Shown here: positions 3,601 through 23,635 of the stretch, in pieces
Position numbering within the stretch: the first letter of the stretch is position 1
How the letters are laid out: every line of letters begins with the position of its first letter
From: Chitinophagales bacterium
GTDB lineage: Bacteria; Bacteroidota; Bacteroidia; Chitinophagales; UBA2359
Length of the DNA stretch: 42,525 nt
Direction of reading: 5' to 3'
Assembly (NCBI GenBank): GCA_016787295.1
Contig: JAEUUX010000142.1
Span: forward strand, 1-42,525
Made by a program: the position numbers and the translations under genes
Notes under the pieces: model-generated
The model's database searches: none
What the model saw: the letters and a program-made list of their open reading frames with translations, nothing else
Told to the model about the DNA's origin: nothing

Positions 3601-6600
3601 CTGTGACAGTGTAAGTGCCTGCTGCTATGTTGTCAATGACGTTGCTGGTGCTTGGACTATTCGCCCAATCATAGTCGTATGGTGTTGTTCCATTGCTAAC
3701 AGTAATGCTTACACTTCCGTTGTCATTGCCACAAGTAGCATCAGTAACTGTGTCACTAGTGATTTGTGGATTTGATGAAGCTGCAACTTGTGTGCTTGCA
3801 GTAGCAGTACAGCCGTTATCGTCGGTGACTGTGACTGTGTATGTGTTAGCAGCAAGGTTATTAGCAGGGTTAGTGATACTTCCACCTGTCCAGCTATAGC
3901 TTAGGTTGTTTCCACCATTGGTTGCCACAACTGCTGAACCATTGTTCAAGCCGCAAGATGTGGGTGTTGCATTGATAGCACTAATGGTTACACCACCCAA
4001 AGAAGGTACGGTAATGGTGGTGTTGGTAGAGCAACCATTTTGTGTTATGGTTACTTGATAGTCACCACTTGCTAAGTTGTTAGCAGTATTGCTATTGCTC
4101 ACGGCAGGACTCCATATGTATGTTGCTCCATTTATGGCATCAAAGCTAATGCTGCCATTATTGTTGCCACAGTTAGCAGCAACGGTATTGATATTGGTAA
4201 TACTTGGTGCATTGCTTTGGGTAATGAGTTGTGATAAAGTCGCTGTACAGTTATTGTCATCTGTAACAGTAACGGTATAAGTGCCTGCGCTGAGGTCACT
4301 AACAGTATTGGTATTACCTGTGACGTTCCAAGCGTAGTCGATAGTACCTGTACCACCAGAAACAGTTACCGTAATGCTACCATTATTATTACCACAAGTC
4401 GCATTGCTGCTATTGTTAAGCACAAGCGTTGGGCTTGGTGAGTCATTAATGGTATAAGTTGCTACTTGTGGGCAGTTGTTGGTATCGGAGATAGTAACTG
4501 TATAACTATCTGCTGCCAAATTGCTAACAGAACCCGTATTAGTACTTCCTGCATTAGGAGACCATTGGTAAGTAATGCCGCCTGCGGGACTACTTGCGCT
4601 GATAGTGATGCTACCATTGGCATTGCCACAAGTGGCATTTGTAGTGGTTTCACTATCAATAGTTGGACCATCAGTATTTCCAATAGCGAAGGCTTGAGTA
4701 GCAGTGCAGCCACTATTGTCTGTAACCGTTACGGCATATCCACCTGCGCTTAAGTTAGTATTTGAGCCGTTAGATGTTCCCCAAGTATAGGTATAGCTGC
4801 TACCTGTTCCGCCCGATGCGGTAGCAATTGCGCTGCCATTGCTTTGTCCACAATTGGCATCGGTTGTTTGGACGCTTATGGTGATAAGGTTTGGTTCATT
4901 GATGGTAATACCTGCGTTGGCGCTACAACCATTAGCATCTGTCACAGTAACGTTATAGGTATTAGGAGATAAATCAGTAGGATTTTGTACATTACCTAAA
5001 CCATTGTTCCAAACAAAAGAGAAAGGAGATGTGCCAAATTCAATGGTGGTATTGATAGCACCATTATTTGCGCCATTACAACTTACATCAATGCCTGTTA
5101 AACTAATCGTAAGTGGATTGGTAGGTTCTGTTATTGTTGCTGAAGCACTTGCCGTACAATTATTATCGTCTGTAACTGTAACGGTATAAGTATTGGCAGT
5201 TAAACCGAATTGGTTTTGTTGGTTAGGTAAAGCATTGTTCCATGCAAAACCATAAGAACCCGCGCCGCCATTGACTTGCAAACTAATGCTACCATCTGAA
5301 CCATTAGCGCAGTTAATATTGTTAATAGTTGGGTTAATGGTAATTGCAGGGCTGCTATTTACCACTACTTGTGCTGTTGATGAACAACCATTGTCAGTAA
5401 TAGTTACTGTATAAGTGCCACCAGCATTAACGATTGCAGTTTGTCCATTACCCAAACCATTTGACCACTGATAACTATTGTGTGTACCTGCATCAAGAGT
5501 CAAGTCATCGCCTGCACAAATTGCTGCATTGCCCGAAATAGTAGCTGTTGGTATAGGATTGACGGTAACAACTATGGCACCAGTACAGTTTTGGGCAGGA
5601 TTACTGTTATCGGTATAAGTAATGGTAATATCGCCAGCAAAATTGAAATCTACATTCAATAGACCTGTGTTGTCTATATTACCCGCATTAGGAGGGTTTA
5701 TTTCCCAAAAACCAATAAGAGAGCCACCGGTTTGTATATAAACATCACTTGCTCCAGCACAAACCACAGCATTACCACTAACGGTAATGGTCGGACAACC
5801 GGGAATACAGTTGGTCACAAGGTCAACGCTACCTGAACAGCCATTGGCATCTGTTGCGACTATGGTGTGGTTGCCGTTGGCTACACCAATGAAAGGAGGA
5901 GTAACTATTGGTCCGTCTAAGGTGAAAGTAGTAGGAGTGCCACTAACAATATTTACACTTATATCGGCGGTAGCACCATTACAAATACTATTTGCGCTGA
6001 TAATAGGTGGCTGATTGACGACGACAGGAATAGTAGTATTGTCAGCGCATTGCCCTGCGTTAGGTGAGAAAGTATACGTGCCATCAACTATATTGTTGAT
6101 AACCGAAGGTGTCCATGTACCTGTAATACCTTCTAAAGACACTAAAGGTAAAGTTGGTGCGGTACTGCCACTACAGAATGGTGGAATAGGTGCAAAACTT
6201 GGAACTATGAGCGGAGTAACAGTAATAGTAACACTATTAGAACCTGCACAACCATTAGAATCAGTTACAGTAACAGTATAAGTTCCTGTATTGGTTATAG
6301 TGACAATATCTGTATTACCCAAGCCATTTGACCATTGATAACTCACAAAACCTGCTTCGGCGGTAATTGTTGTGCTTTCGCCTTGGCAGATAGTATTAAC
6401 ACCATCAATAATAGGTGTGATTGTCGGGCAGTTTGGGTCGCAAACTTGTATGCCATTAAGATTGACAGGAGAACAAATGCTGCTATCATCAATGATATAA
6501 TTGTAAGGAGTGCCAGAGGCTAAGGTTTCTGTATAACCGTTAGGAAGTGTATAAGGTGGTTCTCCTCCGGTAATGGTAACAACAACATTATAGTCAGTCG

Positions 6601-9600
6601 AAGCACCACCTACACATGTGGCAGTAGCTATGGTATTTAATGGGCTTATAAAGTGGAATGTTTTGTCCGCATTAGCACCTCCACAAGGTAGGGCAGGGCA
6701 GTTGGGGTCTGTATCGCACACCCAACGGAAACGATAATTGCCCGCTGTATTGACTGTTACGGTGACGTTGGGTGTAAATTCGTCAGGAGCAAAAGTGACC
6801 ACAATGCCTGTTGATGAACCATCTAAATAATCCCATTCCCAATGGCAATTCGTGGGCGGTGTGTTGCAAGCCAATCCCAATTCGTCAACCATATCTTGCC
6901 ATAATTGGCTACCTGCTGAACAAGAGCCATCGGGCAAACAAGCCGCACCCACTACGCTGGCAGGAGAAATGTCTACAGATAAACTACAGGTGTTTTCTAC
7001 TTCGGGCGGACAACTGTTGGCAGGAACACTTTCGATAAAACCGATTTTTACGGTATCTGTGGCGGTACATGAGCCATTGTCTTCTGTCCAAACTAATTCG
7101 TAAATACCACAAGCTGTCACATTAACAGTTGTTGTGGGAGAATTGAGGTTGGTGAAAGAAGCGGTTCCACCACTTGCTACTGACCATGAACCATTAGTGC
7201 CTGTGCCTGCCAAGACATAGATATAGCTACAAACCAAATTATCTTGTCCTGCTGTAAAGCTAGGGAGGGTCACTACATTAACAGTAGTGCTTGCTGTTCC
7301 TGAACAACCACTTGCATCGGTTACTGTGACGGTATATGTTCCGGCGGCATTGACATCAAGCGTTGGTGTTGCTACGCCGCCTGTCCATTGATAAGTTGCA
7401 AAGTTACCTGTGTTTAGGGTTGTTGTGCCACCTGCACAAATATCTGTGTTACCGCTAATGGTAGGCGTTAAATTATTGGCTTGTGTTACTGTGATGCTGG
7501 TACTTGATGAACAACCGTTGTCGGTGACGGTGACGGTATAAGTATCAGAAACGCCAACAGTTATGCTTGATGTATTTTGATTGCCTGCACTCCATAGGTA
7601 GGAGTCATATCCCGCACCTGCATCTAATTGTGTATCGACACAAAAAGTTGTAGAACCGTTAATAGTGGGTGTTGGTAAGCTATTAACCGTGATAGTTAGG
7701 CTTTCGGTATCTGTACAACCATTGCTGTCGGTAACGGTTAGGGTATATGGATAACTACCGTTGCTCAAATTGCTAACGTTTTGGGTGTTTTGAGTAGGAA
7801 TAGTGACCGTTGCACCCGACCAAGTATAGTTGCCATTGCCACTTGCAGTTAAGGTAGTACTGCCATTTTCGCAAATGGTGTTTGTTCCACCAATACCTGC
7901 AATAGGATTGGCGGATATGGTTAAGGTGGTATTAATGATAGTACTACAGTTGGCTATATTGCTAACCGTTACGGTGTATGTATAGGTGTTAGGTGTTAAA
8001 CCACTCAAATTTTGGCTATCATTATTTGGATTAACAATGCCAGAACCACTCCAGATATAGGAATTTCCGCCTGTTGCAGTTAGTGTGGTAGTAGCGTTTT
8101 CGCAAATACTATTATCACCAATAATACTCGCTACAGGGGTGGTATTGACATTGACTACATGACTGGCAGTTGCACTACAGCCGCTTCCATTGGTGACTGT
8201 AACGGTATAAGTGGTATTAGCAGTTGGTGTGACTGTAAGCTGAGTTGTATTGGTGGCATTTATGTCGTTCCACAAATAATTAGCACCTCCCGAAGCAGTC
8301 AGGGCAACGCTATTACCCTCACAAACGCTATTGTTGCCACTAATACTTGCATTGGGTAAAGCATTAATGCTTAAAGTAATAGAAGTTGAAGCGACATTAC
8401 ATAATGTGCCATTACCATCAGGGTCGTCGGTAATGATGGTAATAGTAACGCTTCCTGTTGTAATGTCTGTTGCCGAAGGTGTATACACTACATTGTTGCC
8501 TGTTGTGGTATTGAATGTTCCGCTACCTGAACTTGTCCATGTGGCTGTTGTTGCTCCACCACCAAGCGTAACGCTTAAATTGGCGGTATTATTAGAACAG
8601 ATTTGGGCAGTAGGCAGTGCAGAGATAGTAGGGGGATTGGGGCAAGAGCAACCTGCAACTATTACGCTAACTGTAGCAGTTGAACTACAGTTGTTGCTGT
8701 TGCTGACGGTTACAGTATAAACACCAGAGGCGATAACCGCCGCCGCCGTAATAGTGGGATTTTGCTGGACACTACTGAAACTATTAGGTCCTGCCCATTG
8801 ATAGGTATTTCCACCCGATGCGGTGAGGTTGATGTCACTACCCGTACACACATTGCCTCCGCCTCCCACAACAGCAGTAGGTAAACTGTTGACTGTGACC
8901 GTAACTGTTTCTGTATCGCTACATTGTCCATTTGTAGCTGTTACTGTATAAGCCGTATTGGTTGTGGGTGAAACGGTGACGGTGGCGTTAGCAGTATTAG
9001 CAGGGTCATTCCACACATAAGTAGCGCCACCTGAAGCGGTTAAGGTGATGTTGTCTCCCAAACAAATAGGATTGTTACCGCTGATAGCCGCTGTAGGTGT
9101 GGTCGTAACATTGACGGTTGTAGTAGTCGTGGCAGAACAACCTTGAGCATTGGTAACGGTAACGATGTAAGTAATGGTGTTACTCGGACTAACTGTTAAA
9201 ATCGATCCTGTAGTGTTGGCAGGGTCATTCCAAGCATAACTATTTCCACCTGATGCTGTAAGAATAGTACTTTGACCAGAACAAATATCGGTATTACCTG
9301 TAATAGATGGAGAAGGTATAGGGTTAACTACTACATCAACCGTAGCCGTAGCAGTACAAGTATTGCTATCTGTTACTGTAACAGTATATGTATAGGTATT
9401 GGCAGGAGTATTGTTAGGGATAGTAATGGTAGGTGATTGAACGGAACTACTAAAGCCGGCTGGTCCACTCCAACTATAGGCAGTTCCAACAGAAGCATTA
9501 AGGCTTATATCATTACCAGGGCAAGCAGGGCTTCCAATAGCACTTGCGGAAGCACTTGGCACAAAGTTGATCACATTTAGACTACTTGTGCCTGTACAGC

Positions 9601-11080
9601 CACTAACATCGCTAACTGTAACGGTATAAGTACCTACGCCCACAGTAATTGTTGGTGTAACTTCATTGTTATTTGACCACAAATAAGAACTGAAACTACC
9701 TGTAGCATCTAAGGTAGTTGTATTGCCTGGACATACTTGTGAAACACCACCAATTGTTGGATTAAGGTTGTTGGACTGGTTAACAATTTGTACATCAGTA
9801 CCTGTACAACCATTGCTATCACTAACAGTTACTGTATAGGTATTGGCAGTATTAACTGTAATAGTAGCAGTTGTTTCAGTGTTACTCCAACTATAAGTAG
9901 TGTATGCTCCTGCATTGAGCGTTGTATTGCCACCAGAACAAAAAGTCGCACTACCTGTGATTGTTGGTGCTGGATTGTTGTTGATTGTTACGCTGGCAGT
10001 AGTAGTGGTAGCACAGGCATTGGCATCGCTAACAGTTATATTGTAAGTATAACTACCTGCTCCCAAACCTGATAAAGTTTGAGGATTAGCACTTGAGTTG
10101 CTAATTCCCGTGCCGCTCCAATTGTAGGTAACTCCGCCCGTAGCCGTTAAAGTGGTAGAACCTGTTTCGCAGATATTAGTAGAGCCTGTCACATTTGCGT
10201 TAGGTAAGTTATTAACAGTCAAGGTGGCTGAGGCTGTACTGCTACATCCGTTGTTTGTAACAGTCACTGTATAAACACCATTATCGGTTGTTGTTGCGGA
10301 TGCGACATTGATAGGGTTGGTGGCAGAGGTAGATGCATTAGGTAATGTCCATTGATATGTGCCTCCACCTGATGCGGTAATGGTAGCGGCTGCTCCTAAA
10401 CAAACTGCATTGTTGTTAGGCGTACCTGAGTTTTCGGTAATGCTAATGCTGGGTGTTGGGACATTATTAATAGTGACATTTGTTGATGTGCTTGCAGTGC
10501 AACCATTGGCTGCTGTTACTATTACAACATAGTTGCCTCCGTTGGTTGTTGTAACAGATGCAGCACTAATCGGATTGCTGGTAGTGGTGGTGGCATTGGG
10601 CAAAGTCCATGTATAGGAATTTCCTCCCGAGGCAGTCAAACTCAATGCACTGCCTTCACAAAGTGTTCCATCATTGGCGGCACCTGATGTTTCGGTTATG
10701 GAAATACTTGCGTTAGGCAAAGCTGGAGCATTGCCAATCGTTGCCGAAACAGTTGTACTACAATTGGTTGTGGTATTGGTGATGGTAACGGTATATGAGC
10801 CATTAGCAACGTTTAACAAATCTTCGGTTGTTTCGCCATTGTTCCACAAGAAAGTATGTGTTCCTGGACTTGTGACGGAGAGGTTAATATCGCCATCAAA
10901 AGGAGTCGAACAAGCTGTATTGTCTGTTACGTTGGTAGTGGCAGTTGGAGCATTGGTGTTGTTGCCAATTGTTGCCGAAATAGTTGTACTACAATTGGTT
11001 GTGGTGTTGGTGATGGTAACGGTATATGAACCATTAGCGAAGTTGGTTAAATCTTCGGTTGTTTCGCCATTGTTCCACAA
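698..11080 (-). CDS. Giant T9SS surface adhesin, C-terminal part (CHU_C / type B sorting domain)
   Basis: 3,460 residues from the first ATG after the in-frame TAG. It is in the same frame as 11255-19762, and the frame is open back to 11254, so this is the C-terminal half of one 6,354-codon gene and has no signal peptide of its own. Contents in order (full-length numbering): Ig/PKD-like repeats of about 70-80 residues with motifs such as CSGQSTILTASGG and YTVTVTDxNGC. Then 11 SprB-like repeats, roughly residues 4800-5630, each opening with (A/S)CG(N/Q)xNGS. Then more Ig-like units. The last 91 residues (698-973) are a CHU_C gliding-motility C-terminal domain with IPTAFSPNNDDVND, WNRWG and DGWDGKYKG. 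That domain directs export through the type IX system and surface attachment. The product is very rich in Thr, Asn, Ser and Val and poor in Lys and Arg, typical of extracellular adhesins. If the TAG is real, this part is not translated from its own start. Confidence 0.85.
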   Translation of the reverse strand: MWNNGETTEDLTNFANGSYTVTITNTTTNCSTTISATIGNNTNAPTATTNVTDNTACSTPFDGDINLSVTSPGTHTFLWNNGETTEDLLNVANGSYTVTITNTTTNCSTTVSATIGNAPALPNASISITETSGAANDGTLCEGSALSLTASGGNSYTWTLPNATTTTSNPISAASVTTTNGGNYVVIVTAANGCTASTSTNVTINNVPTPSISITENSGTPNNNAVCLGAAATITASGGGTYQWTLPNASTSATNPINVASATTTDNGVYTVTVTNNGCSSTASATLTVNNLPNANVTGSTNICETGSTTLTATGGVTYNWSGTGISNSSANPQTLSGLGAGSYTYNITVSDANACATTTTASVTINNNPAPTITGSATFCSGGNTTLNAGAYTTYSWSNTETTATITVNTANTYTVTVSDSNGCTGTDVQIVNQSNNLNPTIGGVSQVCPGNTTTLDATGSFSSYLWSNNNEVTPTITVGVGTYTVTVSDVSGCTGTSSLNVINFVPSASASAIGSPACPGNDISLNASVGTAYSWSGPAGFSSSVQSPTITIPNNTPANTYTYTVTVTDSNTCTATATVDVVVNPIPSPSITGNTDICSGQSTILTASGGNSYAWNDPANTTGSILTVSPSNTITYIVTVTNAQGCSATTTTTVNVTTTPTAAISGNNPICLGDNITLTASGGATYVWNDPANTANATVTVSPTTNTAYTVTATNGQCSDTETVTVTVNSLPTAVVGGGGNVCTGSDINLTASGGNTYQWAGPNSFSSVQQNPTITAAAVIASGVYTVTVSNSNNCSSTATVSVIVAGCSCPNPPTISALPTAQICSNNTANLSVTLGGGATTATWTSSGSGTFNTTTGNNVVYTPSATDITTGSVTITIITDDPDGNGTLCNVASTSITLSINALPNASISGNNSVCEGNSVALTASGGANYLWNDINATNTTQLTVTPTANTTYTVTVTNGSGCSATASHVVNVNTTPVASIIGDNSICENATTTLTATGGNSYIWSGSGIVNPNNDSQNLSGLTPNTYTYTVTVSNIANCSTIINTTLTISANPIAGIGGTNTICENGSTTLTASGNGNYTWSGATVTIPTQNTQNVSNLSNGSYPYTLTVTDSNGCTDTESLTITVNSLPTPTINGSTTFCVDTQLDAGAGYDSYLWSAGNQNTSSITVGVSDTYTVTVTDNGCSSSTSITVTQANNLTPTISGNTDICAGGTTTLNTGNFATYQWTGGVATPTLDVNAAGTYTVTVTDASGCSGTASTTVNVVTLPSFTAGQDNLVCSYIYVLAGTGTNGSWSVASGGTASFTNLNSPTTTVNVTACGIYELVWTEDNGSCTATDTVKIGFIESVPANSCPPEVENTCSLSVDISPASVVGAACLPDGSCSAGSQLWQDMVDELGLACNTPPTNCHWEWDYLDGSSTGIVVTFAPDEFTPNVTVTVNTAGNYRFRWVCDTDPNCPALPCGGANADKTFHFISPLNTIATATCVGGASTDYNVVVTITGGEPPYTLPNGYTETLASGTPYNYIIDDSSICSPVNLNGIQVCDPNCPTITPIIDGVNTICQGESTTITAEAGFVSYQWSNGLGNTDIVTITNTGTYTVTVTDSNGCAGSNSVTITVTPLIVPSFAPIPPFCSGSTAPTLPLVSLEGITGTWTPSVINNIVDGTYTFSPNAGQCADNTTIPVVVNQPPIISANSICNGATADISVNIVSGTPTTFTLDGPIVTPPFIGVANGNHTIVATDANGCSGSVDLVTNCIPGCPTITVSGNAVVCAGASDVYIQTGGSLIGFWEINPPNAGNIDNTGLLNVDFNFAGDITITYTDNSNPAQNCTGAIVVTVNPIPTATISGNAAICAGDDLTLDAGTHNSYQWSNGLGNGQTAIVNAGGTYTVTITDNGCSSTAQVVVNSSPAITINPTINNINCANGSDGSISLQVNGGAGSYGFAWNNALPNQQNQFGLTANTYTVTVTDDNNCTASASATITEPTNPLTISLTGIDVSCNGANNGAINTTIEFGTSPFSFVWNNGLGNVQNPTDLSPNTYNVTVTDANGCSANAGITINEPNLITISVQTTDANCGQSNGSAIATASGGTGSSYTYTWGTSNGSNTNLSAGGYAVTVTDNSGCTATQAFAIGNTDGPTIDSETTTNATCGNANGSITISASSPAGGITYQWSPNAGSTNTGSVSNLAADSYTVTISDTNNCPQVATYTINDSPSPTLVLNNSSNATCGNNNGSITVTVSGGTGTIDYAWNVTGNTNTVSDLSAGTYTVTVTDDNNCTATLSQLITQSNAPSITNINTVAANCGNNNGSISFDAINGATYIWSPAVSNSNTANNLASGDYQVTITQNGCSTNTTITVPSLGGVTISAINATPTSCGLNNGSAVVATNGGNNLSYSWTGGSITNPANNLAANTYTVTVTDDNGCTATASTQVAASSNPQITSDTVTDATCGNDNGSVSITVSNGTTPYDYDWANSPSTSNVIDNIAAGTYTVTVTDNAGCTTTTAYTINAIAGVQVTNVAVTDAACGQSNGSATITATGNGVTYQWDTPNGNDNTADNLSAGSYAVTVTDSNNCTVVQAVDISNIGAPTITVNTTTDATCGNANGSISITANGGTGNLSYTWSTPNGSNITANNLAGGTYTVTVSDENNCEAVESIVIDAVDAPTLAVDNVTDAACGNNNGSITILANGGTGTLSYTWNTPNGSNTSANNLSAGTYTVTVSDDNLCTATLEVTVNGSNAANVNIIGIDTICEGDNTTLDAGAGFDSYSWSNGFNTTTISVTTSDIYTVTVTDANNCTATDNITITVTPLPTPTITGNTNICENETTTIDAGAGFDSYLWSDNGAVTQTIDVGAGAYTVTVTNNGCSATDQINITATTLPTNLSATHDCTSTTTATVTVTATGNNLEYAIDNGAFQASNIFNGVANGAHTLTVQIVGTTCNVTTDISFNCACANPPTLEVHDLSVCEGATADLGNAIDNNTGGTPTYYDNAADANNGAATGVVADPTAVSTGVYFIRVVDVANPLCFTVEAVTITETPVSSPTISGLNNPYCIGETPDVLTATLANGATVTWYSDATLTTEVGNTNTFTPPTSNTTGTISYWAVQSLNTCNSEPTQIDVVFEDCTAPCNLTDPLTVTTTLSVCEGVTNTAEFSVSHNNSEATVHWYDAAGNEVATGNTFTPTAIGTYTAQVVSDTDPTCISNSLTATLSEIDNNLVLDAGPDVTICLGDNITLNGTSTGSESTMWSSDSGTFSNANSLISTYTPSGAGSFDIVLSAENACSTDSDTLTVTVNPTVTISVTGNSNIMLGQSTQLTATGADSYVWGNSATLSCDDCANPVATPTTTTTYTVASADACSETVEVTVIVTEGQPALVIPTAFSPNNDDVNDVFNIVPKNGVIENYYITIWNRWGNCIYESTNVNDGWDGKYKGIEQELDVYAYTIKYNFVGEQQKFHSGNVTLVR
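2870..5345 (-). repeat. Array of 11 SprB-like protein repeats
   Basis: Eleven successive units of about 70-78 residues within the giant adhesin. Each has the opening pattern (D/N)(A/V)(T/A/S)CG(N/Q)xNGSI and closes with (L/I)SAGTYTVTVTDxNxCT. They match the SprB repeat family seen in Flavobacterium gliding adhesins. Unlike the 231-bp array at 10731-11655 they are diverged at DNA level, so they look old. Confidence 0.75.
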
Positions 11081-11655
11081 GAAAGTATGTGTTCCTGGAC
11101 TTGTGACAGAAAGGTTAATATCACCATCAAAAGGAGTCGAACAAGCGGTATTGTCTGTTACGTTGGTAGTGGCAGTTGGAGCATTGGTGTTGTTGCCAAT
11201 CGTTGCCGAAACAGTTGTACTCCAATTGGTTGTGGTGTTGGTGATGGTAACGGTCTATGAACCATTAGCGAAATTGGTTAAGTCTTCGGTTGGTTCGCCA
11301 TTGTTCCACAAGAAAGTATGTGTTCCAGGACTTGTGACAGAAAGGTTAATATCGCCATCAAAAGGAGTCGAACAGGCGGTATTGTCTGTTACGTTGGTAG
11401 TGGCAGTTGGAGCATTGGTATTGTTGCCAATCGTTGCCGAAACAGTTGTACTACAATTGGTTGTGGTGTTGGTGATGGTAACGGTATATGAACCATTAGC
11501 AACGTTTGGCAAGTCTTCAGATGCTACACCTGTACTCCAAGCAAAACTGTGCGTTCCTGCACTTGTTACACTAAGGTCAATGCTGCCATTAAAGGGAGAA
11601 CTACAAGCAGTATTGTCTGCGGGTGTTGTTATTGCCACAGGTAAAGAATTAATGG
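10731..11655 (-). repeat. 231-bp (77-residue) near-identical tandem repeats, 4 copies
   Basis: The marker ttgccaat recurs at 10731, 10962, 11193 and 11424, exactly 231 bp apart. Each unit encodes a segment with ATTNVTDNTACSTPFDGDIN, the block from TSPGTHTFLWNNGE to EDL, and NGSYTVTITNTTTNCSTT. Copies differ at a handful of positions only; the fourth (11424 on) has diverged more. Exact preservation of 77 codons implies recent in-frame expansion, and repeats this alike are hard to assemble. Confidence 0.9.
11255..11257 (-). other. In-frame TAG interrupting the giant adhesin
   Basis: Sister repeats read GGT TCA TAT ACC (GSYT) at this point; here it is GGT TCA TAG ACC, a single T-to-G change on the coding strand (plus-strand A to C at 11255). 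The same copy has plus-strand A to C at 11222 (Cys to Trp) and T to G at 11293 (Thr to Pro). Reading frame continues unbroken on both sides. Confidence 0.9.
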
Positions 11656-14600
11656 TCACATCAACTTGTTCTACAGTAAAACAAGTAGCATCGGCAGGAT
11701 TATTAACACGAATGTAATAGGTACCTGTGCCTACGGCTGTTGGTGTGATAATATCACCCGATCCTCCTGCATTAGCTAATGCTTGGGTACTATAGTATAC
11801 AGGACTTGTCCCTGTATTAGTGCCAATGGTGTTGGTTAGGTTTACTGTGGCATTACTCGCACTATTTTGACAGATAGCAGCAGGTGGATTGATGGCAAGA
11901 GTAGGTGCTGTACAAGCGCAACTTATATTAGTGGTAGCGGTATTGGTGCAATTGGTGCCAATTACGCGTACTGTAATAGTATAACCACCATTAGTTAAAT
12001 TATTAAATACGTTATTGCTTTGGAAAGTTGTGCCATTAGAAGAGTATTCCAATGTTCCACCGTCAACAACGGAGGCTGTAACGGTAATAGTTCCACTACC
12101 ATTAAAAGGCGTGGCTCCGCAACTAGTTGCTAAACTAATAGCAGGTAACGGATTTACTGTGACAGAGGCAGTAGTAATTGTTGAACAATTATTGGCATCG
12201 GAAACAGTAACAGTATAGGTGGTGTTAGCAGTTGGTGAAACAGTGATGGGATTAGCTCCTCCTGTACTCCAATCGTAAGTAGTTCCGCCATTGGCAGTTA
12301 AGGTAATAGGGTCGCCATTACAAATCGGAGCATTACCACTAATGCTAGCATTTGGCAAGCTATTGACAGTCACAAGCGTAGTAGTAGACGCTGTACAACT
12401 ATTGCTATCAGTGACGGTAACGGTATAGGTGGTATTGGCAGTTGGTGAAACTGTAATTGGATTAGCTCCTCCTGTACTCCAAGCATAAGTTGTTCCACCA
12501 TTGGCGGTCAAAGCTGTGCTTTGTCCATTACAAACAGTGCTTGTTCCGCTGATACTTGGCGAAGGAACAGTATGAACGGTCAAATTAACCGTAGCTGTAT
12601 TGGTACAACCATTATTAGTAACAGTTACGGTATAAACACCGTTATCTGTTGCTGTTGCGGCTATTATATTGAGTGGATTCGTAGTAGGTGTAGAGGCATT
12701 GGGTAATGTCCATTGATAGGTGCCGCCGCCTGAAGCGGTAATTGTAGCGGCTGCTCCCAAACAAATTGCATTGTTGTTGGCAGTGCCTGAATTTTCGGTA
12801 ATGCTAATGCTGGGAGCGGGATTATTGTTGACGGTAATGAGAGTAGTGGTACTTGCTGTGCAACCATTAGCATCAGTCACAACAACTGTATAGTTGCCAC
12901 CGTTAGCAGTTGTTGCAGCAGCAGTACTAAGTGGGTTGCTATTGTTGGTGCCGCCGCCGGGAACTGTCCATTGATAAGAGGCTCCACCTGTTGCTGTTAT
13001 ACTTAATGCACTGCCCACACAAAGCGTGCCATCGTTGGCAGTGCCTGATGTTTCGGCAATAGTGATGCTTGCAGTGGGTGCATTATTGACGGTGACTGTT
13101 ACAGTTGTGACAGTAGAACAACTATTTGCATTGGTGACGGTGACAGTATAGGTGGTGTTGGTAGTTGGCGAAACGGAAATAGGATTACTTCCACCTATAT
13201 TCCAAGTATAAGTTGTTCCTCCATTAGCGGTCAAAGTTGTGGTTTGTCCGCTACATATAGTACTTGTTCCGCTAATACTAGCATTAGGTAAAAGATTTTG
13301 GGTGATAGTGACAGTAGCTATGTCACAACAACCCGATGCGTCACAGGCTTGGTATTGAAAAGATGTTGTACCAGAGAAACCTGCAAAAGGAGTAAAAGTA
13401 ACTGTTCCCGCAGCAAAATTGACAGCGGAAATTTCGCCATCGGTAAATGGCGGTGGTGTGATGATATTGATAGATGCAATGGGGTTGCTACCAGCAGTGT
13501 CGTTGGTCAAAACATTGATAACTTGTGAAGCCTGACCTTGACAAATGCTGGCTATGTCATCAGTGGCATTAGGAGGTGTTCCTGTGGTGGTAGGGCGAAT
13601 ATAAATATCATCTATTGCCACGTCATAACCTATTGCACCGAAATTTTCGTTGGTGATGCAGATAGTATAACTACCGCCTGCTCCGCTATTGAATTGGTAA
13701 CTACCTGATGTCCATTGTTCGGTTTCAGGTACGCCAACTGTTCCTAAAAGTGTTCCATTGGCACTTAAACCCAATAAAGGTGTTGGAAGTCCTGTTCCTG
13801 TGGGCAAGATATTGATGAAATAGGCACCAAAACAATAGTTGGTGTTAGCTGCAAGCGAAACTGTTTGACACCAAATACGATTATTTGTACCCACATTACC
13901 CGCAGGAAAATCTACTATCATCATATTGCCCGAACCAGAAGTGTGGTCGTTTAGGTTGCTACTAAAGTCGCTATTACATGGATTAGGTGATGTTTGTACC
14001 GAAAAATCATATTGGCACAAAATCGGTTGTCCTGTTGAGCTATTGGTACAAATGGTGCCAGGACAAGGACTATAATCGTAGTTGCTGGTAAAATTAGTGA
14101 AAGGTGTGCCAGCATTAAAGGTCTCAAAACTACCATCTACGACCAAGTTAGCCCCGAAACAACCTGTTGTAGTGGTGCAACTACTGGGTGTAGTGCAAGC
14201 AGGTGTGGGTGTATAGGAGATAGCAGGACAAGCACCTGTGGCTGTACTACTAATGCTAATAGTAGGAGTAGATGCGATAGGAATGGCATTGCTAACAAAA
14301 CTATTGCCCGTCAAAGTGCCTGCAACACCTGTAACAGAAAAAGGACCTGTTCCATTGATGTCAAAGCTAACTGTATATTGAGTGCCTGCTATGTTGCAAT
14401 TTGTTTGTTGATTAGATAAACTCAATACTGTATTAACTGTTACAGAAGCACTTGTAATCGAAGAACAGTTATTGGCATTGGTGACTGTTACAGTATAAGT
14501 GGTATTGGAGGTGGGTGATACTGCTAAGGCAGCGTTTGTGCTATTATTGTTCCACAGATAGGTAGTGCCGCCGCTGGCGGTCAAAGTAGTACTATTTCCG

Positions 14601-17600
14601 CTACAAATGGCTGTACTGCCACCAATACTGGCAGTAGGTAATGGATTGACAGTAATAGCAAAAGGTTCTTCGTCAGAACAAGTCCCTACTGTTTTTTTGA
14701 TGTAGTAAGTTGTGTTGGTTGTGGGCGAAACGCTTGCACTTGCCAACTGATTAGCTACTGTGGCAGGTGTTCCACTATGGTAAGATATAGTTCCTGTAGT
14801 GCTGTTGGCATCATTGACAGTTAATGTACTTAAATCAAAAGACGAACCTATGCAAATGCTGGTTGAGTTTGGTGTGAGAGTTATACTGGGAGCGGCATTA
14901 ACATTCACACGGATTTGCAAAGTATCCGAACAACCTGTTGCACCAACAGTTTCGGTTAAAACATAAATATATTGACCTGGTGTGGTAGGAACAATAGTAT
15001 TAGAGGCTGACAAAACGGGATCACCATTGGAGTCAGTGTAGAATTGTGTGCCATTAGCTCCCGAATTGGTATAAGTCACGCTTGATAAATTGGCAGTTGA
15101 ACCATTACAAACATTAATGGTTTGCGAACTTGTGGCAGTTAGATTTGGATTGGGATTGACGGTTACGCTGGCGTTGGCAGTGCCGGAGCAAGATACACCA
15201 TTTTGTGTAGCAGTAACGGTAATAGTGTAGGTTGTGTTGGTAGTAATATTACTATAAGAAGCAGTTTGAGAACTACCTCCACTATTTGACCATATGTAGG
15301 AGTCGAAACCGCTACCTGCATCAAAAGCTACCGAGCTTCCGTTACAAATACCGATAGTAGCAGGTGTAATGGTTGTGGTGACAGCATTATTCACTACCAC
15401 TGTTACATTGGTCGCACTTTGACAACCGTTACCATCGGTGACAGTAACTGCATAATTGGTATTGTTGGCGGTTGCGTTGCTAATGCTTGCTCCATTGTTA
15501 CCATCGCTCCACAAATAACTGCTAAAAGCAGGGGTTACTGTTAGGGTATTACTTGCCGTGCCATTACAAAGTACATCGTTACCATTAATAGTAGGAGATG
15601 GTAATGGATTAATGGTAAAAGTGATGGGTGTTTTGGTACTTTCACAAGAGCCTACTACGCTAGCAACATAGAAAGTATAGGTAGTGGCAGAAGTTGCGCT
15701 ACCTACTACAACAGGTGTGTAGGCAGCAACGGTTTCGCCTATAATAAGCGTTGCAGGATTATTGGGGCCATACCATTGATAAGTACCCGGACTACCACTT
15801 GCGCTAATGCTGGGATTGGTGGTTGCCAAACCTGTATAACAAACAGCACTAATAGGTGCGACGCTGGGTGCAGTAATGGTATTGTTGTTGGTAATGGTGG
15901 TGGATACATCGGTAAAACAAGAGGTTGTAGGATTTTCAAAACGGAAAGTATAGTCTCCCGCAGCTAAGGCAGTTACTGGCGAGGTGCCAGTAACATCAGT
16001 ACCTGTTACGGTATTGTAACTTGTTCCCGAAGAATAATAAACATTGCCGCCACTAGGATTAGTAAAAGCGATTTGTCCGTTGTTGAGTGAACAAAGGCTT
16101 TGCGTTGGAGTCAATAAGCCTGCTGTTGGATTGGGATTAACTGTAATGGCTATATTGGTTGGAACAGTACATACGCCTTCCGTTACAGTCACGGTATAGG
16201 TAACGGTGGTAGGAGAGGCGGTAAGGTTAGTAGGCGCGAATGTGGCACTACTATTGCTACCGCCGCTGTTAGACCAAGAGTATGTTGCTCCAGCAATATT
16301 GTCGGCATCAAGCGTAATGCTATTGCCCGAACAAATGGTAGAGCTTGGCACTGCTACAATGCTGGGTGTAGGAGGAGCTTGAATGGTGAGTGTGACCGTT
16401 GCAGGAAGACTTTCACACCCCAAAACGGTATTCGTTACATAAAAATCATAGCTACCAGGGGTGCTTACATCTACTTGCGCAGCAGTGGGTGTATAGGTAG
16501 CATTGGTAGCCCCCGAAATGATGGTTGCATTATTGTTGGGTCCATACCACTGCCAAGAAGGACCTCCACCACCATTGGGCGAAGCCGTGAAAGTAGGTAT
16601 TATTCCATTAACACAGATGCTAGGATTATTGGGGCTGATGGTGGGAGTAGGAGGCAGCGCTGTAGCAGAACCAACACTAACTGTTACTTCTGTATAGCAG
16701 CCAGTAGCGTTAGTGGTATATACCAAAGTATAAGTACCTACACCCAAATTGGTCAGTGGTGAGGTGCCTGTTATATCATCTCCTGTGCTAACAAAACCTG
16801 AACCTGTTTCGACCGTAACACCACCAGGAGAAGGAAAAGCTAATGCACCGTTAGCTAAAGCACAGTTGGTGACATTGGTAATAGTAAGGTCAGCAGGCGT
16901 AACATTGGGTGGTTGGTTGATAGTAATTACTACTGCATCAGAAGATTTACAACCATTGCCGTCTGTAATTGTTACTGTATAGGTATTAGAAGTAGTGGGA
17001 TTGATAGTTTGGGTTGTTGCACTATTAGACCAACTATAAGAAAAGCCTGCACCTGCGTCTATGGTGGCATTTACACCCGCAAAGTTGTTATTACAACCAA
17101 TGAAATCGGAACCAAGATTGACCGTTGGCAAATCATTTACAGTAATATCAATATCATCGGTGACGGTACAAGTGCGCGTGGCGGTGGAAGTGCTACCATT
17201 GACCGCTGTAATCGTTACCACATAAGTATTGGTCACACTTACCGTATAGGTTGTTGTCCCTGCGGCGTTGGTAGGAGCAGTAATGCTACTAGCAGTGGCA
17301 CCCGTCGACCAAGCGTAGGTATAAGTACCACTTGATGGTGCAGTAGTAGGAGTAACTGCTACAGACAAAGTGGGAGCAAGTGCATTGAGACATAAACTTG
17401 TTGTAGATGTAGAGATGGTAGCCGTAACTTCTGGTACATTAGGGATAGTTACAGCAGCAGGAATATACGTACATTGATGGTCTATGCGAATGTTATTAAT
17501 GGCTGCTGAAAAACTTGTACCTGTACTCAAATTAGAAGCCCAGCGAACATTGTTATTATTCTGCCAAACAAATGCAATTTTGACATTAGGATTATTGTTG

Positions 17601-19762
17601 GCAGTAACAGGCAAGTTAATGGTTCGAGAACTCCAATTAGCTTTGGCAATACAACTTCCATTGTAGGTGCTGGGCGGGTCGTCTAATGCAAACCAGTTAG
17701 CACCATTGTCAGGACTGTAATACACTGTCATGTTATCACCTTTGGCAATAGGAGCGCTTTCTTCTACTTCTGCATATTCAAAATATAATTTGGGACCGAA
17801 ACCAGAGCCACCGCTCCAGCCCGTAAGGTTGATAGTGGGAGAAACGGCAGCCGTGCTTGTTAGGTTATTAGCTCCATAATTATATGCAGCAGGACTAGCC
17901 GGATTGGGATTGGTAGATATTTTGAGGGTAGCATCAGCACCCGCTCCTGCACAAGTTCCCACAGCTTGTCCACTTTCGCCCGTGCCAATGTTCCACGCAT
18001 TAGGAGATGCTCCATTAACAGTTTGCGGCATACCCGTTTGTCCTACTGTAGGTGTCATTGTCCAAGCATCACCTACAGCAATGGGCATACTCACAATGCT
18101 TCCCGTGCCGCTTACCGTTACGGTATAGGTGCCAGGAGCAAGTCCTGTAGCAGGATTAGTAGTAGCTCCTGTGTTCCATACATAAGCATGTCCGCCCGTC
18201 AAAGGAGAGGTAGCGCTAACGTTAGGCGTGAAATAAACAGGATTACCAACGGCATCAAAATTCACTACTGCTTGTCCATCATTGACACCAAAACAACTCA
18301 CAGGAATAGTATCCAAATCGGTTGCTTGACAGTTGGAGACACAAGTAGATAGGTAAACAGGTACAGGCACACGCGTTGCACAACCATTGCTTACTACCTC
18401 AGCATAATAGGTAGTAGTGCTGGTGGGCAAAGGACTTGGGGTATAAGTACTACCAACACTTAAGGTGGTACCTCCAACTGCTGCGCTATACCACACCACA
18501 GTAAAACCACCGGGATTGGTAACGGTTATGGGCGTTAATAAAGAATTTGTATTATAACACAATGTTCCTGCAACAGGAGTTAGTGTGGGATAAGGACTGA
18601 TGGTAAAAGTAATAGCCACCAAATTGCAGCGTTTGGTAGTAGATAGTGCAGCAGTGCTGGCTTGTGCAGCATATAGCGTAAGGGGAGTGGAATTGAAAGT
18701 ATAGGTAGCAGGTGCAGCAATAATGCTAGTGCTAGCATTCGTACCTTGCGAAGGGTCAGCCGTATACCAATATATCTCCGACGAAGCATAACCCGCCGAA
18801 CCTATAATAGCAGCATTGTGCTGGGTGAGGTCATAGTTGGTATAAGGCGTAGAACCACATAAATTTACATTCGAAATAGCCGTTAAAAGACCCGAAGGAA
18901 GCGAACCTGTAAAGAGCGTGCCAGCGGGATATTGGGTAGCGAAAGTCGTATTGTAATTTGAACAACTTATTCTTGAAACCCAATTCGCAGAATTATTAAT
19001 AGCCGCTATCCAACCTGCTTGACTTGTAGGAGCGGGCGAAGGCGGCACAAAATAACTAAAATCAGTAGATGTGGAGGGTGCCATTACATTACATTCCATG
19101 CCTGGCACAAGATTAGTAGTGCCTGTTGCAGGAGGAGTGCTTAAAGAAGCTGTTGTAAATCCAGCGGAAGAACTACTGAAACCATATAATACATTACTAT
19201 TGGGATAGGTGGCATTATTAGCTCCCGCAGGATTGGTCCATGTGCCGCCTTGCAAAAAATAAATTTGATCGCCACCAGAATTCATATTCATAGCAACATT
19301 GAAAGCAGAACCGCTCACAAAGGGGGGATTCGGGCAAGCAAGACTCCAAGTGCCCGGAGCAACACTATAGGGCATAGAAGAAGACGGATAAGTCCCTGCA
19401 TATGGATTGTTGGGTGAGGAAACAGGAGCTATACCTGATGAACTAAACGTAATAATAGTTCCAGCAGCAAGAGTAGCTCCTGTATAGGTCATACAAACTA
19501 AACCTTCGTTCTCGCCCCATGTATTGGAAGCACTAACATAAGCACAATCTGTAACGCAAATCTGTGTACCTGTCGTGATAGGTTTAAAACAAACAAAACT
19601 AATTTTGTCTTCCGTACTGGTGCCACTACACGCACCATTATTCGCATTCACCCCAATAACAGCAATATCGCCCTGAGATAGAACAGTTTGTGCAGATAGG
19701 GGTAGTGAAATGCTAAATAGGATGAGGCAAAGAGAGGTAAAGAAAAGTAGATTTTTATTCAT
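11255..19762 (-). CDS. Giant T9SS surface adhesin, N-terminal part (Ig/PKD repeats)
   Basis: 2,835 residues from ATG 19760-19762 to the TAG at 11255. The start is secure because it begins a classic signal peptide (MNKNLLFF, hydrophobic core, cleavage after LPLSAQ). Residues 25-310 form a beta-rich head starting GDIAVIGVNANN, resembling lamin-tail-like domains. At roughly 560-765 is a jelly-roll segment (AWTMTPTVGQ to INNIRID). Ig/PKD-like units follow (CSGNSTTLTASGGTTYLW type). At about 1870-2055 is a second lectin-like jelly roll (NLVVDGSFETF to VAIDDIYIRP). At 2067-2155 is a cadherin-like module with VLTNDTAG. Ig units then lead into the 77-residue repeats. Secretion to the cell surface is inferred from the signal peptide plus the CHU_C domain at the end of the downstream part. 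Expected role is adhesion or gliding. As it stands this half lacks a sorting domain and would not be anchored. Confidence 0.85.
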   Translation of the reverse strand: MNKNLLFFTSLCLILFSISLPLSAQTVLSQGDIAVIGVNANNGACSGTSTEDKISFVCFKPITTGTQICVTDCAYVSASNTWGENEGLVCMTYTGATLAAGTIITFSSSGIAPVSSPNNPYAGTYPSSSMPYSVAPGTWSLACPNPPFVSGSAFNVAMNMNSGGDQIYFLQGGTWTNPAGANNATYPNSNVLYGFSSSSAGFTTASLSTPPATGTTNLVPGMECNVMAPSTSTDFSYFVPPSPAPTSQAGWIAAINNSANWVSRISCSNYNTTFATQYPAGTLFTGSLPSGLLTAISNVNLCGSTPYTNYDLTQHNAAIIGSAGYASSEIYWYTADPSQGTNASTSIIAAPATYTFNSTPLTLYAAQASTAALSTTKRCNLVAITFTISPYPTLTPVAGTLCYNTNSLLTPITVTNPGGFTVVWYSAAVGGTTLSVGSTYTPSPLPTSTTTYYAEVVSNGCATRVPVPVYLSTCVSNCQATDLDTIPVSCFGVNDGQAVVNFDAVGNPVYFTPNVSATSPLTGGHAYVWNTGATTNPATGLAPGTYTVTVSGTGSIVSMPIAVGDAWTMTPTVGQTGMPQTVNGASPNAWNIGTGESGQAVGTCAGAGADATLKISTNPNPASPAAYNYGANNLTSTAAVSPTINLTGWSGGSGFGPKLYFEYAEVEESAPIAKGDNMTVYYSPDNGANWFALDDPPSTYNGSCIAKANWSSRTINLPVTANNNPNVKIAFVWQNNNNVRWASNLSTGTSFSAAINNIRIDHQCTYIPAAVTIPNVPEVTATISTSTTSLCLNALAPTLSVAVTPTTAPSSGTYTYAWSTGATASSITAPTNAAGTTTYTVSVTNTYVVTITAVNGSTSTATRTCTVTDDIDITVNDLPTVNLGSDFIGCNNNFAGVNATIDAGAGFSYSWSNSATTQTINPTTSNTYTVTITDGNGCKSSDAVVITINQPPNVTPADLTITNVTNCALANGALAFPSPGGVTVETGSGFVSTGDDITGTSPLTNLGVGTYTLVYTTNATGCYTEVTVSVGSATALPPTPTISPNNPSICVNGIIPTFTASPNGGGGPSWQWYGPNNNATIISGATNATYTPTAAQVDVSTPGSYDFYVTNTVLGCESLPATVTLTIQAPPTPSIVAVPSSTICSGNSITLDADNIAGATYSWSNSGGSNSSATFAPTNLTASPTTVTYTVTVTEGVCTVPTNIAITVNPNPTAGLLTPTQSLCSLNNGQIAFTNPSGGNVYYSSGTSYNTVTGTDVTGTSPVTALAAGDYTFRFENPTTSCFTDVSTTITNNNTITAPSVAPISAVCYTGLATTNPSISASGSPGTYQWYGPNNPATLIIGETVAAYTPVVVGSATSATTYTFYVASVVGSCESTKTPITFTINPLPSPTINGNDVLCNGTASNTLTVTPAFSSYLWSDGNNGASISNATANNTNYAVTVTDGNGCQSATNVTVVVNNAVTTTITPATIGICNGSSVAFDAGSGFDSYIWSNSGGSSQTASYSNITTNTTYTITVTATQNGVSCSGTANASVTVNPNPNLTATSSQTINVCNGSTANLSSVTYTNSGANGTQFYTDSNGDPVLSASNTIVPTTPGQYIYVLTETVGATGCSDTLQIRVNVNAAPSITLTPNSTSICIGSSFDLSTLTVNDANSTTGTISYHSGTPATVANQLASASVSPTTNTTYYIKKTVGTCSDEEPFAITVNPLPTASIGGSTAICSGNSTTLTASGGTTYLWNNNSTNAALAVSPTSNTTYTVTVTNANNCSSITSASVTVNTVLSLSNQQTNCNIAGTQYTVSFDINGTGPFSVTGVAGTLTGNSFVSNAIPIASTPTISISSTATGACPAISYTPTPACTTPSSCTTTTGCFGANLVVDGSFETFNAGTPFTNFTSNYDYSPCPGTICTNSSTGQPILCQYDFSVQTSPNPCNSDFSSNLNDHTSGSGNMMIVDFPAGNVGTNNRIWCQTVSLAANTNYCFGAYFINILPTGTGLPTPLLGLSANGTLLGTVGVPETEQWTSGSYQFNSGAGGSYTICITNENFGAIGYDVAIDDIYIRPTTTGTPPNATDDIASICQGQASQVINVLTNDTAGSNPIASINIITPPPFTDGEISAVNFAAGTVTFTPFAGFSGTTSFQYQACDASGCCDIATVTITQNLLPNASISGTSTICSGQTTTLTANGGTTYTWNIGGSNPISVSPTTNTTYTVTVTNANSCSTVTTVTVTVNNAPTASITIAETSGTANDGTLCVGSALSITATGGASYQWTVPGGGTNNSNPLSTAAATTANGGNYTVVVTDANGCTASTTTLITVNNNPAPSISITENSGTANNNAICLGAAATITASGGGTYQWTLPNASTPTTNPLNIIAATATDNGVYTVTVTNNGCTNTATVNLTVHTVPSPSISGTSTVCNGQSTALTANGGTTYAWSTGGANPITVSPTANTTYTVTVTDSNSCTASTTTLVTVNSLPNASISGNAPICNGDPITLTANGGTTYDWSTGGANPITVSPTANTTYTVTVSDANNCSTITTASVTVNPLPAISLATSCGATPFNGSGTITVTASVVDGGTLEYSSNGTTFQSNNVFNNLTNGGYTITVRVIGTNCTNTATTNISCACTAPTLAINPPAAICQNSASNATVNLTNTIGTNTGTSPVYYSTQALANAGGSGDIITPTAVGTGTYYIRVNNPADATCFTVEQVDVTINSLPVAITTPADNTACSSPFNGSIDLSVTSAGTHSFAWSTGVASEDLPNVANGSYTVTITNTTTNCSTTVSATIGNNTNAPTATTNVTDNTACSTPFDGDINLSVTSPGTHTFLWNNGEPTEDLTNFANGS

Positions 19763-22440: not shown

Positions 22441-22468
22441 AAAAATAGCAGCAAAATGCCCTATTTTT
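22441..22468 (-). terminator. Possible terminator of a minus-strand array transcript
   Basis: AAAAATAG (22441-22448) pairs with CTATTTTT (22461-22468), with an inner GCA/TGC pairing. Read on the minus strand it is followed by U-rich sequence. It sits just past the left end of the GCTAACAA array, opposite the minus-strand promoter at 22846-22876. Confidence 0.4.
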
Positions 22469-22480
22469 TAAGTAATATTC

Positions 22481-22722
22481 GCTAACAAATATACAGCTAT
22501 TGCTAACGATAACTTTATTTTTGCTAACAACTGCAAAATGCTTGCTAACACATATACTGATGCTTGCTAACAACTACATGATGTTTGTTAGAAAGTGTAT
22601 TGTTTTTGCTAACAACAAGGCTATATTTGCTAACAGATGCGTAATATTTAATGTTTCTTTAAGATTACTTTGCTAACAAATGCTTTATTATTGTTTGTAG
22701 TCATTGCTATTATTGCTAACAA
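22481..22722. repeat. 21-bp-phased array of GCTAACAA motifs
   Basis: GCTAAC begins at 22481, 22502, 22523, 22544, 22566, 22608, 22629, 22672 and 22715; six of the nine are the full GCTAACAA. Spacings are 21, 21, 21, 22, 42, 21, 43 and 43, that is one or two 21-22-bp steps. At the skipped position 22587 a degenerate GTTAGAAA is found. The register continues weakly to GCTG at 22736 and 22757. The 13 bp between motifs are not conserved apart from T-richness just before each motif. Two helical turns per unit suggests either protein binding on one DNA face or a decayed minisatellite. Confidence 0.85.
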
Positions 22723-22845
22723 ACAGTGGAATATTGCTGTAAATAGCTGTATTATTGCTGGTATTTGGAAGTAATTAATTACAAAAATAGAAATAACATA
22801 GTAAAAAAAATAAAGGTTATCTGGTATTTTTTTAAAAAAATTACA

Positions 22846-22876
22846 CAAAGTTAGTGTTTTTCTATGATTTTTCATA
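22846..22876 (-). promoter_or_regulatory. Minus-strand promoter reading into the GCTAACAA array
   Basis: On the minus strand, TATG (22876-22873), 19 nt, then TAACTTTG (22853-22846), a perfect TAnnTTTG. No protein-coding gene lies downstream on this strand before the flippase gene; the transcript would run through the motif array to the hairpin at 22441-22468. It overlaps a mirror-image plus-strand promoter. Confidence 0.45.
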
Positions 22877-22893
22877 AAAAACTCTTACCTTTG
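22863..22893 (+). promoter_or_regulatory. Promoter of the 22955 gene
   Basis: TATG (22863-22866), 19 nt, then TACCTTTG (22886-22893). The -7 box matches TAnnTTTG; the -33 has ATG in place of TTG. The predicted start of transcription is near 22898, giving a leader of about 55 nt to the ATG at 22955. Confidence 0.6.
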
Positions 22894-22954: not shown

Positions 22955-23635
22955 ATGAAAAGATTATATAACATCTCTATTTTAGTTTTACTACAACATG
23001 CTCGTATTGTTATCGAATTATTAAAACAAGATTTAGATGTATTTGCAACACAAGATTCCAGCTTTAATGCAGCTAAAATTACGGAATTACAAGATTTATT
23101 AAATGAAGCTAATCAACTTCCTGACAAATCTATACTTGACGAACAAGCTGATTTAACTCAACAGTTTTTGGAATTAATTGAAGATGGCAAACAACATTAT
23201 AAAGAGTTGTTCTACTTTATTAGAAAAGCATTTAATAGCCAAATAACTATACAAAACCTATTAGGAAAAAACACTTTTTCGGCTGCCAAAAGAAATCAAT
23301 TAGCTTTTATTCAGTTTTTTAAAGTATTGAATGACATACAACCAAATTACGAAGCTGATTTATTAGCTGCGGGAGCCAAACCTGCTTTATTGGAGCGCAC
23401 CACTATTTTATGCCAAAAAATAGAAGCAATAAGTACTAAGCGAGAGATTTTTAAAAGAGAACGACAAGGGAAAACGGTATACCGTGTAGAAAAAGTTAAT
23501 GATTTATATGTTGCTATGAGTAACATTGAGCGTTTAGCGTTGCTTGTTTATCAAGATAACATCTCCAAAATAAAGGCGTACACCATTCCACGAGCTAATC
23601 GCAACAAAAAAATCACTACTACGCCGAAACGTTGA
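22955..23635 (+). CDS. Uncharacterised alpha-helical cytoplasmic protein
   Basis: 226 residues, not assigned to a family. No signal peptide and no clear membrane segment; the sequence is almost entirely predicted helix, with charged amphipathic stretches such as ITELQDLLNEANQLP and LTQQFLELIEDGKQHYKELF. A more distinctive central part reads YFIRKAFNSQITIQNLLG followed by FSAAKRNQLAFIQFFKVL. The tail is basic (RANRNKKITTTPKR), compatible with nucleic-acid or phosphate binding, but this is only a composition argument. The ATG is well placed behind a TAnnTTTG promoter. It lies alone between the GCTAACAA array and katG, transcribed away from the array. A helical bundle or structural role is conceivable; no function is claimed. 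Confidence 0.75.
   Translation: MKRLYNISILVLLQHARIVIELLKQDLDVFATQDSSFNAAKITELQDLLNEANQLPDKSILDEQADLTQQFLELIEDGKQHYKELFYFIRKAFNSQITIQNLLGKNTFSAAKRNQLAFIQFFKVLNDIQPNYEADLLAAGAKPALLERTTILCQKIEAISTKREIFKRERQGKTVYRVEKVNDLYVAMSNIERLALLVYQDNISKIKAYTIPRANRNKKITTTPKR

Follow-up and report, generated by a model that had tools for sequence, protein, structure and literature searches.

Why does a six-letter motif recur every two turns of the DNA helix upstream of a gene for a small, predicted helical protein, and what could such an arrangement be for? The question was raised by a sequence-only reading of the window, i.e. the 42,525-nucleotide stretch analyzed here, which makes up all of contig C231 in the 5.4-Mb draft genome of a Chitinophagales bacterium. 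Two options were offered there for the repeated motif: a minus-strand transcript of about 400 nt, and a DNA array of sites on one face of the helix. The comparisons described below suggest that the array is probably a non-coding, helix-phased set of DNA binding sites controlling the plus-strand gene to its right (Table 1).

The phased array and its flanks

All nine exact GCTAAC motifs were found where the sequence-only reading had placed them, 21-22 bp or double that distance apart, and a degenerate filler was present at every skipped position (Table 1). With two further weak units, the register is kept over 14 positions (nine exact and five degenerate) between 22481 and 22757, successive positions being 21 or 22 bp apart. 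The sites thus lie at whole numbers of helical turns, as in a helix-phased multi-site operator. The core can be written as TTGCTA(ACA). The best hexamer of the 801-bp intergenic region is present there 10 times and forms 8 phased successive pairs, whereas the maxima in 1000 dinucleotide shuffles of this region were 7 and 2, respectively, and the observed values were reached in none of them (0/1000). Both the count and the phase are far beyond chance.

Spacers had been described as unconserved; compared with the core, their conservation is in fact far lower (column heterogeneity p = 5e-5). Adjacent spacers keep some similarity (TGATGCTT, TGATGTTT), which makes an origin of the array by duplication likely. 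Because only the core is common to the units, the array was not reported by Tandem Repeats Finder. It was also correctly stated that no coding frame explains the array: the frame shifts at each 22-bp step, and the wider set of arrays is devoid of codon periodicity (see below).

Table 1. Features of the window and of related arrays; positions without a locus name refer to the window
Feature	Position	Strand	Description and basis
Phased array	22479..22777	+	14 positions at 21-22 bp; sequence, hexamer statistics, column conservation
Exact GCTAAC units (starts)	22481, 22502, 22523, 22544, 22566, 22608, 22629, 22672, 22715
Degenerate units at skipped positions	22587, 22650, 22693
Further weak units	22736, 22757
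Gene associated with the array	22955..23635	+	226 aa, predicted all-helical; multi-copy Bacteroidia family; profile searches
Candidate promoter -7 box TACCTTTG (TAnnTTTG) of the downstream gene	22886..22893	+	Pattern scan, consensus match only
TAACTTTG, minus-strand promoter box of the sequence-only reading	22846..22853	-	Judged a chance match
AT-rich inverted repeat with T tract, terminator of the sequence-only reading	22441..22468	.	Sequence; not supported
Example 21-bp arrays, genome G000	L019 3942-4321; L041 1-537; L044 11701-12214; L051 6951-7274; L102 3376-3803
Small proteins adjoining arrays	L015 257-904; L066 581-952; L083 8420-9022; L012 297-1274; L032 274-732

The array had further been credited with a promoter and a terminator of its own, and this part of the proposal was not sustained. 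The presumed promoter box is one of 7 matches to TAnnTTTG on the two strands of an AT-rich region of about 0.8 kb, which is the level expected by chance, and no minus-strand match was detected at the C10 paralog. The terminator scan returned no terminator-like hairpin (0 found), and no promoter-terminator pair was kept at the homologous locus. RNA hairpins within the repeat units were also considered and rejected, dyads and folding being not in excess over shuffles. With flanking elements at chance level and not found at the paralog, the minus-strand repeat RNA is left without support. The link of the array to the plus-strand gene on its right had been overlooked.

A candidate -7 box stands between the array and this gene, 69 bp before the ATG (Table 1); no -33 box was identified with it. 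At the paralogs, box TACTTTTG is found 131 bp (C10) and 50 bp (C128) before the ATG.

The downstream gene family and its arrays

The window array lies about 185 bp upstream of the gene, whose 226-aa product does not have the C-terminal domain of its 316-aa paralog. The product was recognized by the NCBIfam profile NF052641 (PQLLE_fam) with 42.8 bits (E = 4.7e-11), short of the curated cutoff of 80 bits, and thus appears to be a distant relative only. The proteins of the family have about 220 aa of predicted helix at the N-terminus, often followed by a further, Ig-like domain, which in the one member tested was CarboxypepD_reg (Ig-like). Their helical part corresponded to no Pfam family. The AlphaFold2 model of the window gene product is helical and of low confidence (mean pLDDT 67), and no recognizable DNA-binding domain was found in the encoded protein. 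A fold search with this weak model (best E = 0.19, coiled-coil/BAR-like proteins) was not meaningful, and the best hit of a PDB profile search (E = 0.0024 over 42 residues) was judged to be coiled-coil noise. Searching with a six-sequence profile, we found the family in 23 of 296 Bacteroidia genomes, with up to 20 copies per genome when all candidates were scored. No relatives were detected in phage, plasmid and viral collections. The neighbors of the window gene are ordinary genes, and no neighbor gene recurs at the family loci beyond a few near-relatives.

A 21-bp array was present directly upstream of the C10 paralog (59% amino acid identity to the window gene product), of the more distant C128 paralog and of a UBA2322 homolog (G011, 27% identity); as a base rate, 4.5% of the open frames in this genome have an array in the 700 bp before them. 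The C10 and window units align in register, and the phase of 21-22 bp is kept while the spacers have diverged. TTGCTA is retained in both arrays, in 10-14 of the 14 units per position, and cross-identity between the two arrays is 0.71-1.0 in the core columns and 0.03-0.45 elsewhere (chance 0.27). In both paralogous arrays core and spacer conservation differ (p = 5e-5). The columns of the repeat unit have thus not decayed uniformly, as those of a neutral minisatellite would, and the refuting outcome named in the sequence-only reading, motifs and spacers decaying alike, did not materialize. The G011 array (L013 8961-9640) consists of more than 20 units in two halves, which look like inverted, diverged copies, with a run of N inside; TCAAAGA....TAACTA.G is common to both halves and the spacers differ.

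The association between array and family rests on 30 family loci, out of a family for which more than 55 places were listed. At 23 of these, lag 21 or 42 was the top autocorrelation lag in the 1.5 kb upstream, compared with 6 loci at which it was strongest downstream (Fisher p = 2e-5), and two of these six were short loci where the upstream array was counted again. About a quarter of the family loci show no array; those with arrays come from genomes of about ten bacterial families. Their arrays look like that of the window, with short cores, changing spacers and exact 21-bp steps over 5-14 units, and copy number varies widely, with as few as about 5 and as many as over 20 units at different loci. 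The distance from array end to ATG is as short as 19-55 bp in several relatives, and the array could therefore sit in a transcribed leader at those loci.

Conservation within the unit was compared over 23 arrays, with boundaries and register set by hand. Conserved columns were contiguous (combined p = 4e-11), a codon-period (3-bp) signal was absent (p = 0.995), and 10.5 bp was the strongest harmonic tested (mean power 0.26, expected about 0.1; p < 1/3000). The 10.5-bp signal held when the arrays of this genome were omitted and when one array per subfamily was used. Lag autocorrelation of conservation was lowest at 5-6 bp and positive at 10 bp. Over the 23 arrays conservation is concentrated on one face of the helix, as it would be in an operator, and the pattern fits protein contacts on one face of B-DNA, often in two patches per 21 bp. 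Taken alone, the window array shows the 21-bp but not the 10.5-bp modulation (0.08); it has one core per 21 bp, not two.

Similarity of the array motifs follows that of the proteins (Mantel r = 0.67, p = 0.0002; r = 0.63 once pairs above 75% identity are left out); the loci are partly related, and the Mantel and one-per-subfamily tests address kinship only in part. TGCGGA or GCGGAC recurs in L182, L185, L203, L204 and L205, which belong to two bacterial families; the window and C10 have TTGCTA in common. CGGA, the commonest conserved tetramer, occurs in the consensus of 10 of the 23 arrays and the next tetramer in 6. The core is found in either orientation among loci, which, together with the inverted halves of the G011 array, is as expected of DNA sites. 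Across the relatives, period and position recur while the letters of the motif vary among loci; the core is kept at C10.

Explanations of the array

Could the array simply be an old 21-bp tandem repeat, of the kind in which this genome abounds, that has decayed where it stands? Of the 68 arrays in the 1.25 Mb sampled, 27 have a period of 21 bp, far more than any other, two a period of 22 bp and nine one of 41-42 bp; the period-21 arrays carry many different unit sequences, and many have no link to the gene family. Intergenic 6-mers repeat at lag 21 at 21 times background, and at 4.8 times after the visible arrays have been masked. The partial similarity of adjacent window spacers points in the same direction. 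Since homogeneous 21-bp arrays are so abundant here, which the sequence-only reading could not take into account, the period alone is no proof of function. The contrast between core and spacers, strong in both paralogous arrays, speaks against neutral decay, as does a core common to paralogs with 59% protein identity, at which distance neutral DNA should be unalignable. The same is true for the recurrence, with helical-phase modulation, of arrays before genes of a single family in genomes from about ten bacterial families. Young arrays of the genome are homogeneous (most with 0.85-0.97 column identity) and on average have no clustered conserved columns. On this evidence an aged neutral minisatellite appears unlikely, with some chance left to it. 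The array might also be a substrate of recombination and expansion, whose copy number tunes or switches the downstream gene in the manner of a VNTR with no specific protein bound. The range of copy numbers between loci and the abundance of young 21-bp arrays are compatible with this, but the window and C10 arrays are too diverged for easy recombination and conserve cores rather than whole units; we consider such a role decidedly improbable.

The repeat might instead be transcribed, either as a minus-strand RNA with repeated UUGUUAGC or as a repeated mRNA leader on the plus strand bound by an RNA-binding protein. In some relatives the array comes so close to the start codon that it may be part of the leader, and a minus-strand TAnnTTTG match is available. 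A transcribed repeat is nevertheless improbable: besides the failure of the flanking elements, cores occur in both orientations, the repeat units have no general fold or dyad signal, and a 10.5-bp modulation is expected of double-stranded DNA, not of single-stranded RNA. Least credible, and very improbable, is a repeat coding for a heptapeptide (21 bp = 7 codons, GCT AAC = Ala-Asn) that would be broken here by the 22-bp steps. Of 21 arrays, 16 can be read through in one frame, giving plausible heptads such as RKSITGG in L181, and in the window, short runs of units between the 22-bp steps translate as [FIL]-A-N. By eye, coding was convincing in L181, L184 and L204, but it was rejected by the codon-position tests. 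Open frames were no commoner than in shuffles, 5 of the 21 arrays had stops in all frames, third codon positions were hardly relaxed (0.59 vs 0.62), 3-bp power was lacking, and GCT and AAC are conserved as DNA, third positions included.

Of the two options offered at the outset, it is the DNA array of sites on one helix face that has gained support, from the core kept between paralogs, the 10.5-bp conservation and the link to a single family. If the array is such a set of binding sites, a protein, probably a dimer or oligomer, would touch one face of the DNA, meeting the short core every two helical turns, and in many of the homologous arrays a second contact would follow one turn, or half a period, from the first. 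Many weak sites, filled cooperatively, could then make up a nucleoprotein platform controlling expression of the gene. Array and gene would constitute a self-contained unit that has no recurrent neighbors and occurs several times per genome. Tandem duplication of 21-bp units, frequent in this genome, is the most likely origin of the array, and selection may then have kept core and phase while the spacers drifted. A protein binding at the array and regulating this gene could be the encoded protein or another regulator; as no neighbor gene recurs, self-binding by the encoded protein is possible. A more far-reaching version, speculative and distinctly unlikely in our estimate, is a hitherto undescribed, self-contained Bacteroidia module, with up to 20 copies per genome, in which a helical (often also Ig-like) protein assembles into a nucleoprotein complex on the locus-specific, 21-bp-phased array of its own gene, motif and protein co-evolving.

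Several known systems resemble the array in part. Plasmid iterons share the single helical phase, their direct repeats measuring about 20-22 bp; here, in contrast, there is no Rep-like gene, plasmid match or plasmid context, the chromosomal neighbors are ordinary, and several copies occur per genome. In ParMRC-type centromeres the parC repeats lie upstream of the partition operon and are bound along one helix face, an arrangement alike in having a repeat array upstream of a gene, but no ParM/ParR-like neighbor is present here. Bacterial minisatellites and VNTRs share the fixed-period tandem units, in which this genome is rich at 21 bp, whereas the family arrays keep their cores, not their spacers, and their position upstream of one family. 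The closest studied geometry, with the same two-turn spacing of weak sites, is that of the Bordetella ptx and fha promoters, where BvgA~P occupies multiple weak sites every 22 bp upstream of the promoter; at ptx six dimers bind, one monomer per turn, on one DNA face, and two imperfect 21-bp direct repeats have been noted (PMC7250471). BvgA~P, however, is one regulator for several genes and binds as up to six dimers, as opposed to up to 14 or more sites, locus-specific motif letters and a single-gene unit repeated across a bacterial class in the present case. The TAACTGA direct repeats of Beggiatoaceae, Cyanobacteria and Bacteroidetes also form arrays upstream of genes, but with one fixed heptamer that was proposed to act after transcription (PMC4679880), unlike the 21-bp period, locus-specific cores and unconserved spacers seen here. 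We found nothing in the literature on such arrays or on PQLLE, and as far as our searches show, no conserved DNA element tied in this way to a multi-copy family of genes has been described before. Array and gene, taken as one unit, give a first handle on the gene family. The natural series of phased arrays with different cores makes the rules of multi-site binding and a possible protein-site co-evolution addressable, and a genome prone to 21-bp tandem repeats may turn them into regulatory DNA.

Other repeats of the genome

Intergenic arrays with units of exactly 21 bp are unusually abundant in genome G000 (examples in Table 1), and many contig ends fall within them. TTGCTA was considered as a genome-wide site and rejected: it is also found in perfect arrays at C2/C260, C94 and C150, and the hexamer alone is not diagnostic. 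The reversed control pattern was also frequent (16 matches, compared with 32 for the TTGCTA pattern), largely because of the richness of the genome in tandem arrays. The C150 array (L176, contig positions 632-931) is a perfect 21-bp repeat of TTGCTAAAGCCTTAACTACAA just upstream of a biotin transporter (BioY-like) gene. At L207 (1038-1485) a lipoprotein-like open frame (MKKLLALIATIILFAIVLSSCKSHELCPAYGK...) runs in frame through a 21-bp array. Two dispersed families have longer units, one of 42 bp with the internal palindrome TTTCTCATGAGAAA (L017 1-169, L062 6449-6602, L083 9836-9965) and one of 41 bp at three loci (L012 1-132, L068 1-367, L100 17956-18358). Intergenic DNA of G000 also shows strong autocorrelation at 73-75 and 54 bp, possibly due to CRISPR arrays.

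Other small helical proteins adjoin 21-bp or 41/42-bp arrays, mostly just downstream of them (Table 1), and several have a fibronectin-III-like or related C-terminal domain. The association with arrays may extend beyond the one gene family. In the window itself, positions 698-19762 contain two giant minus-strand open frames (3460 and 2835 aa) that look like PKD/Ig-like adhesins, and 231-bp tandem repeats (10731-11619) extend from the end of one frame into the start of the next.
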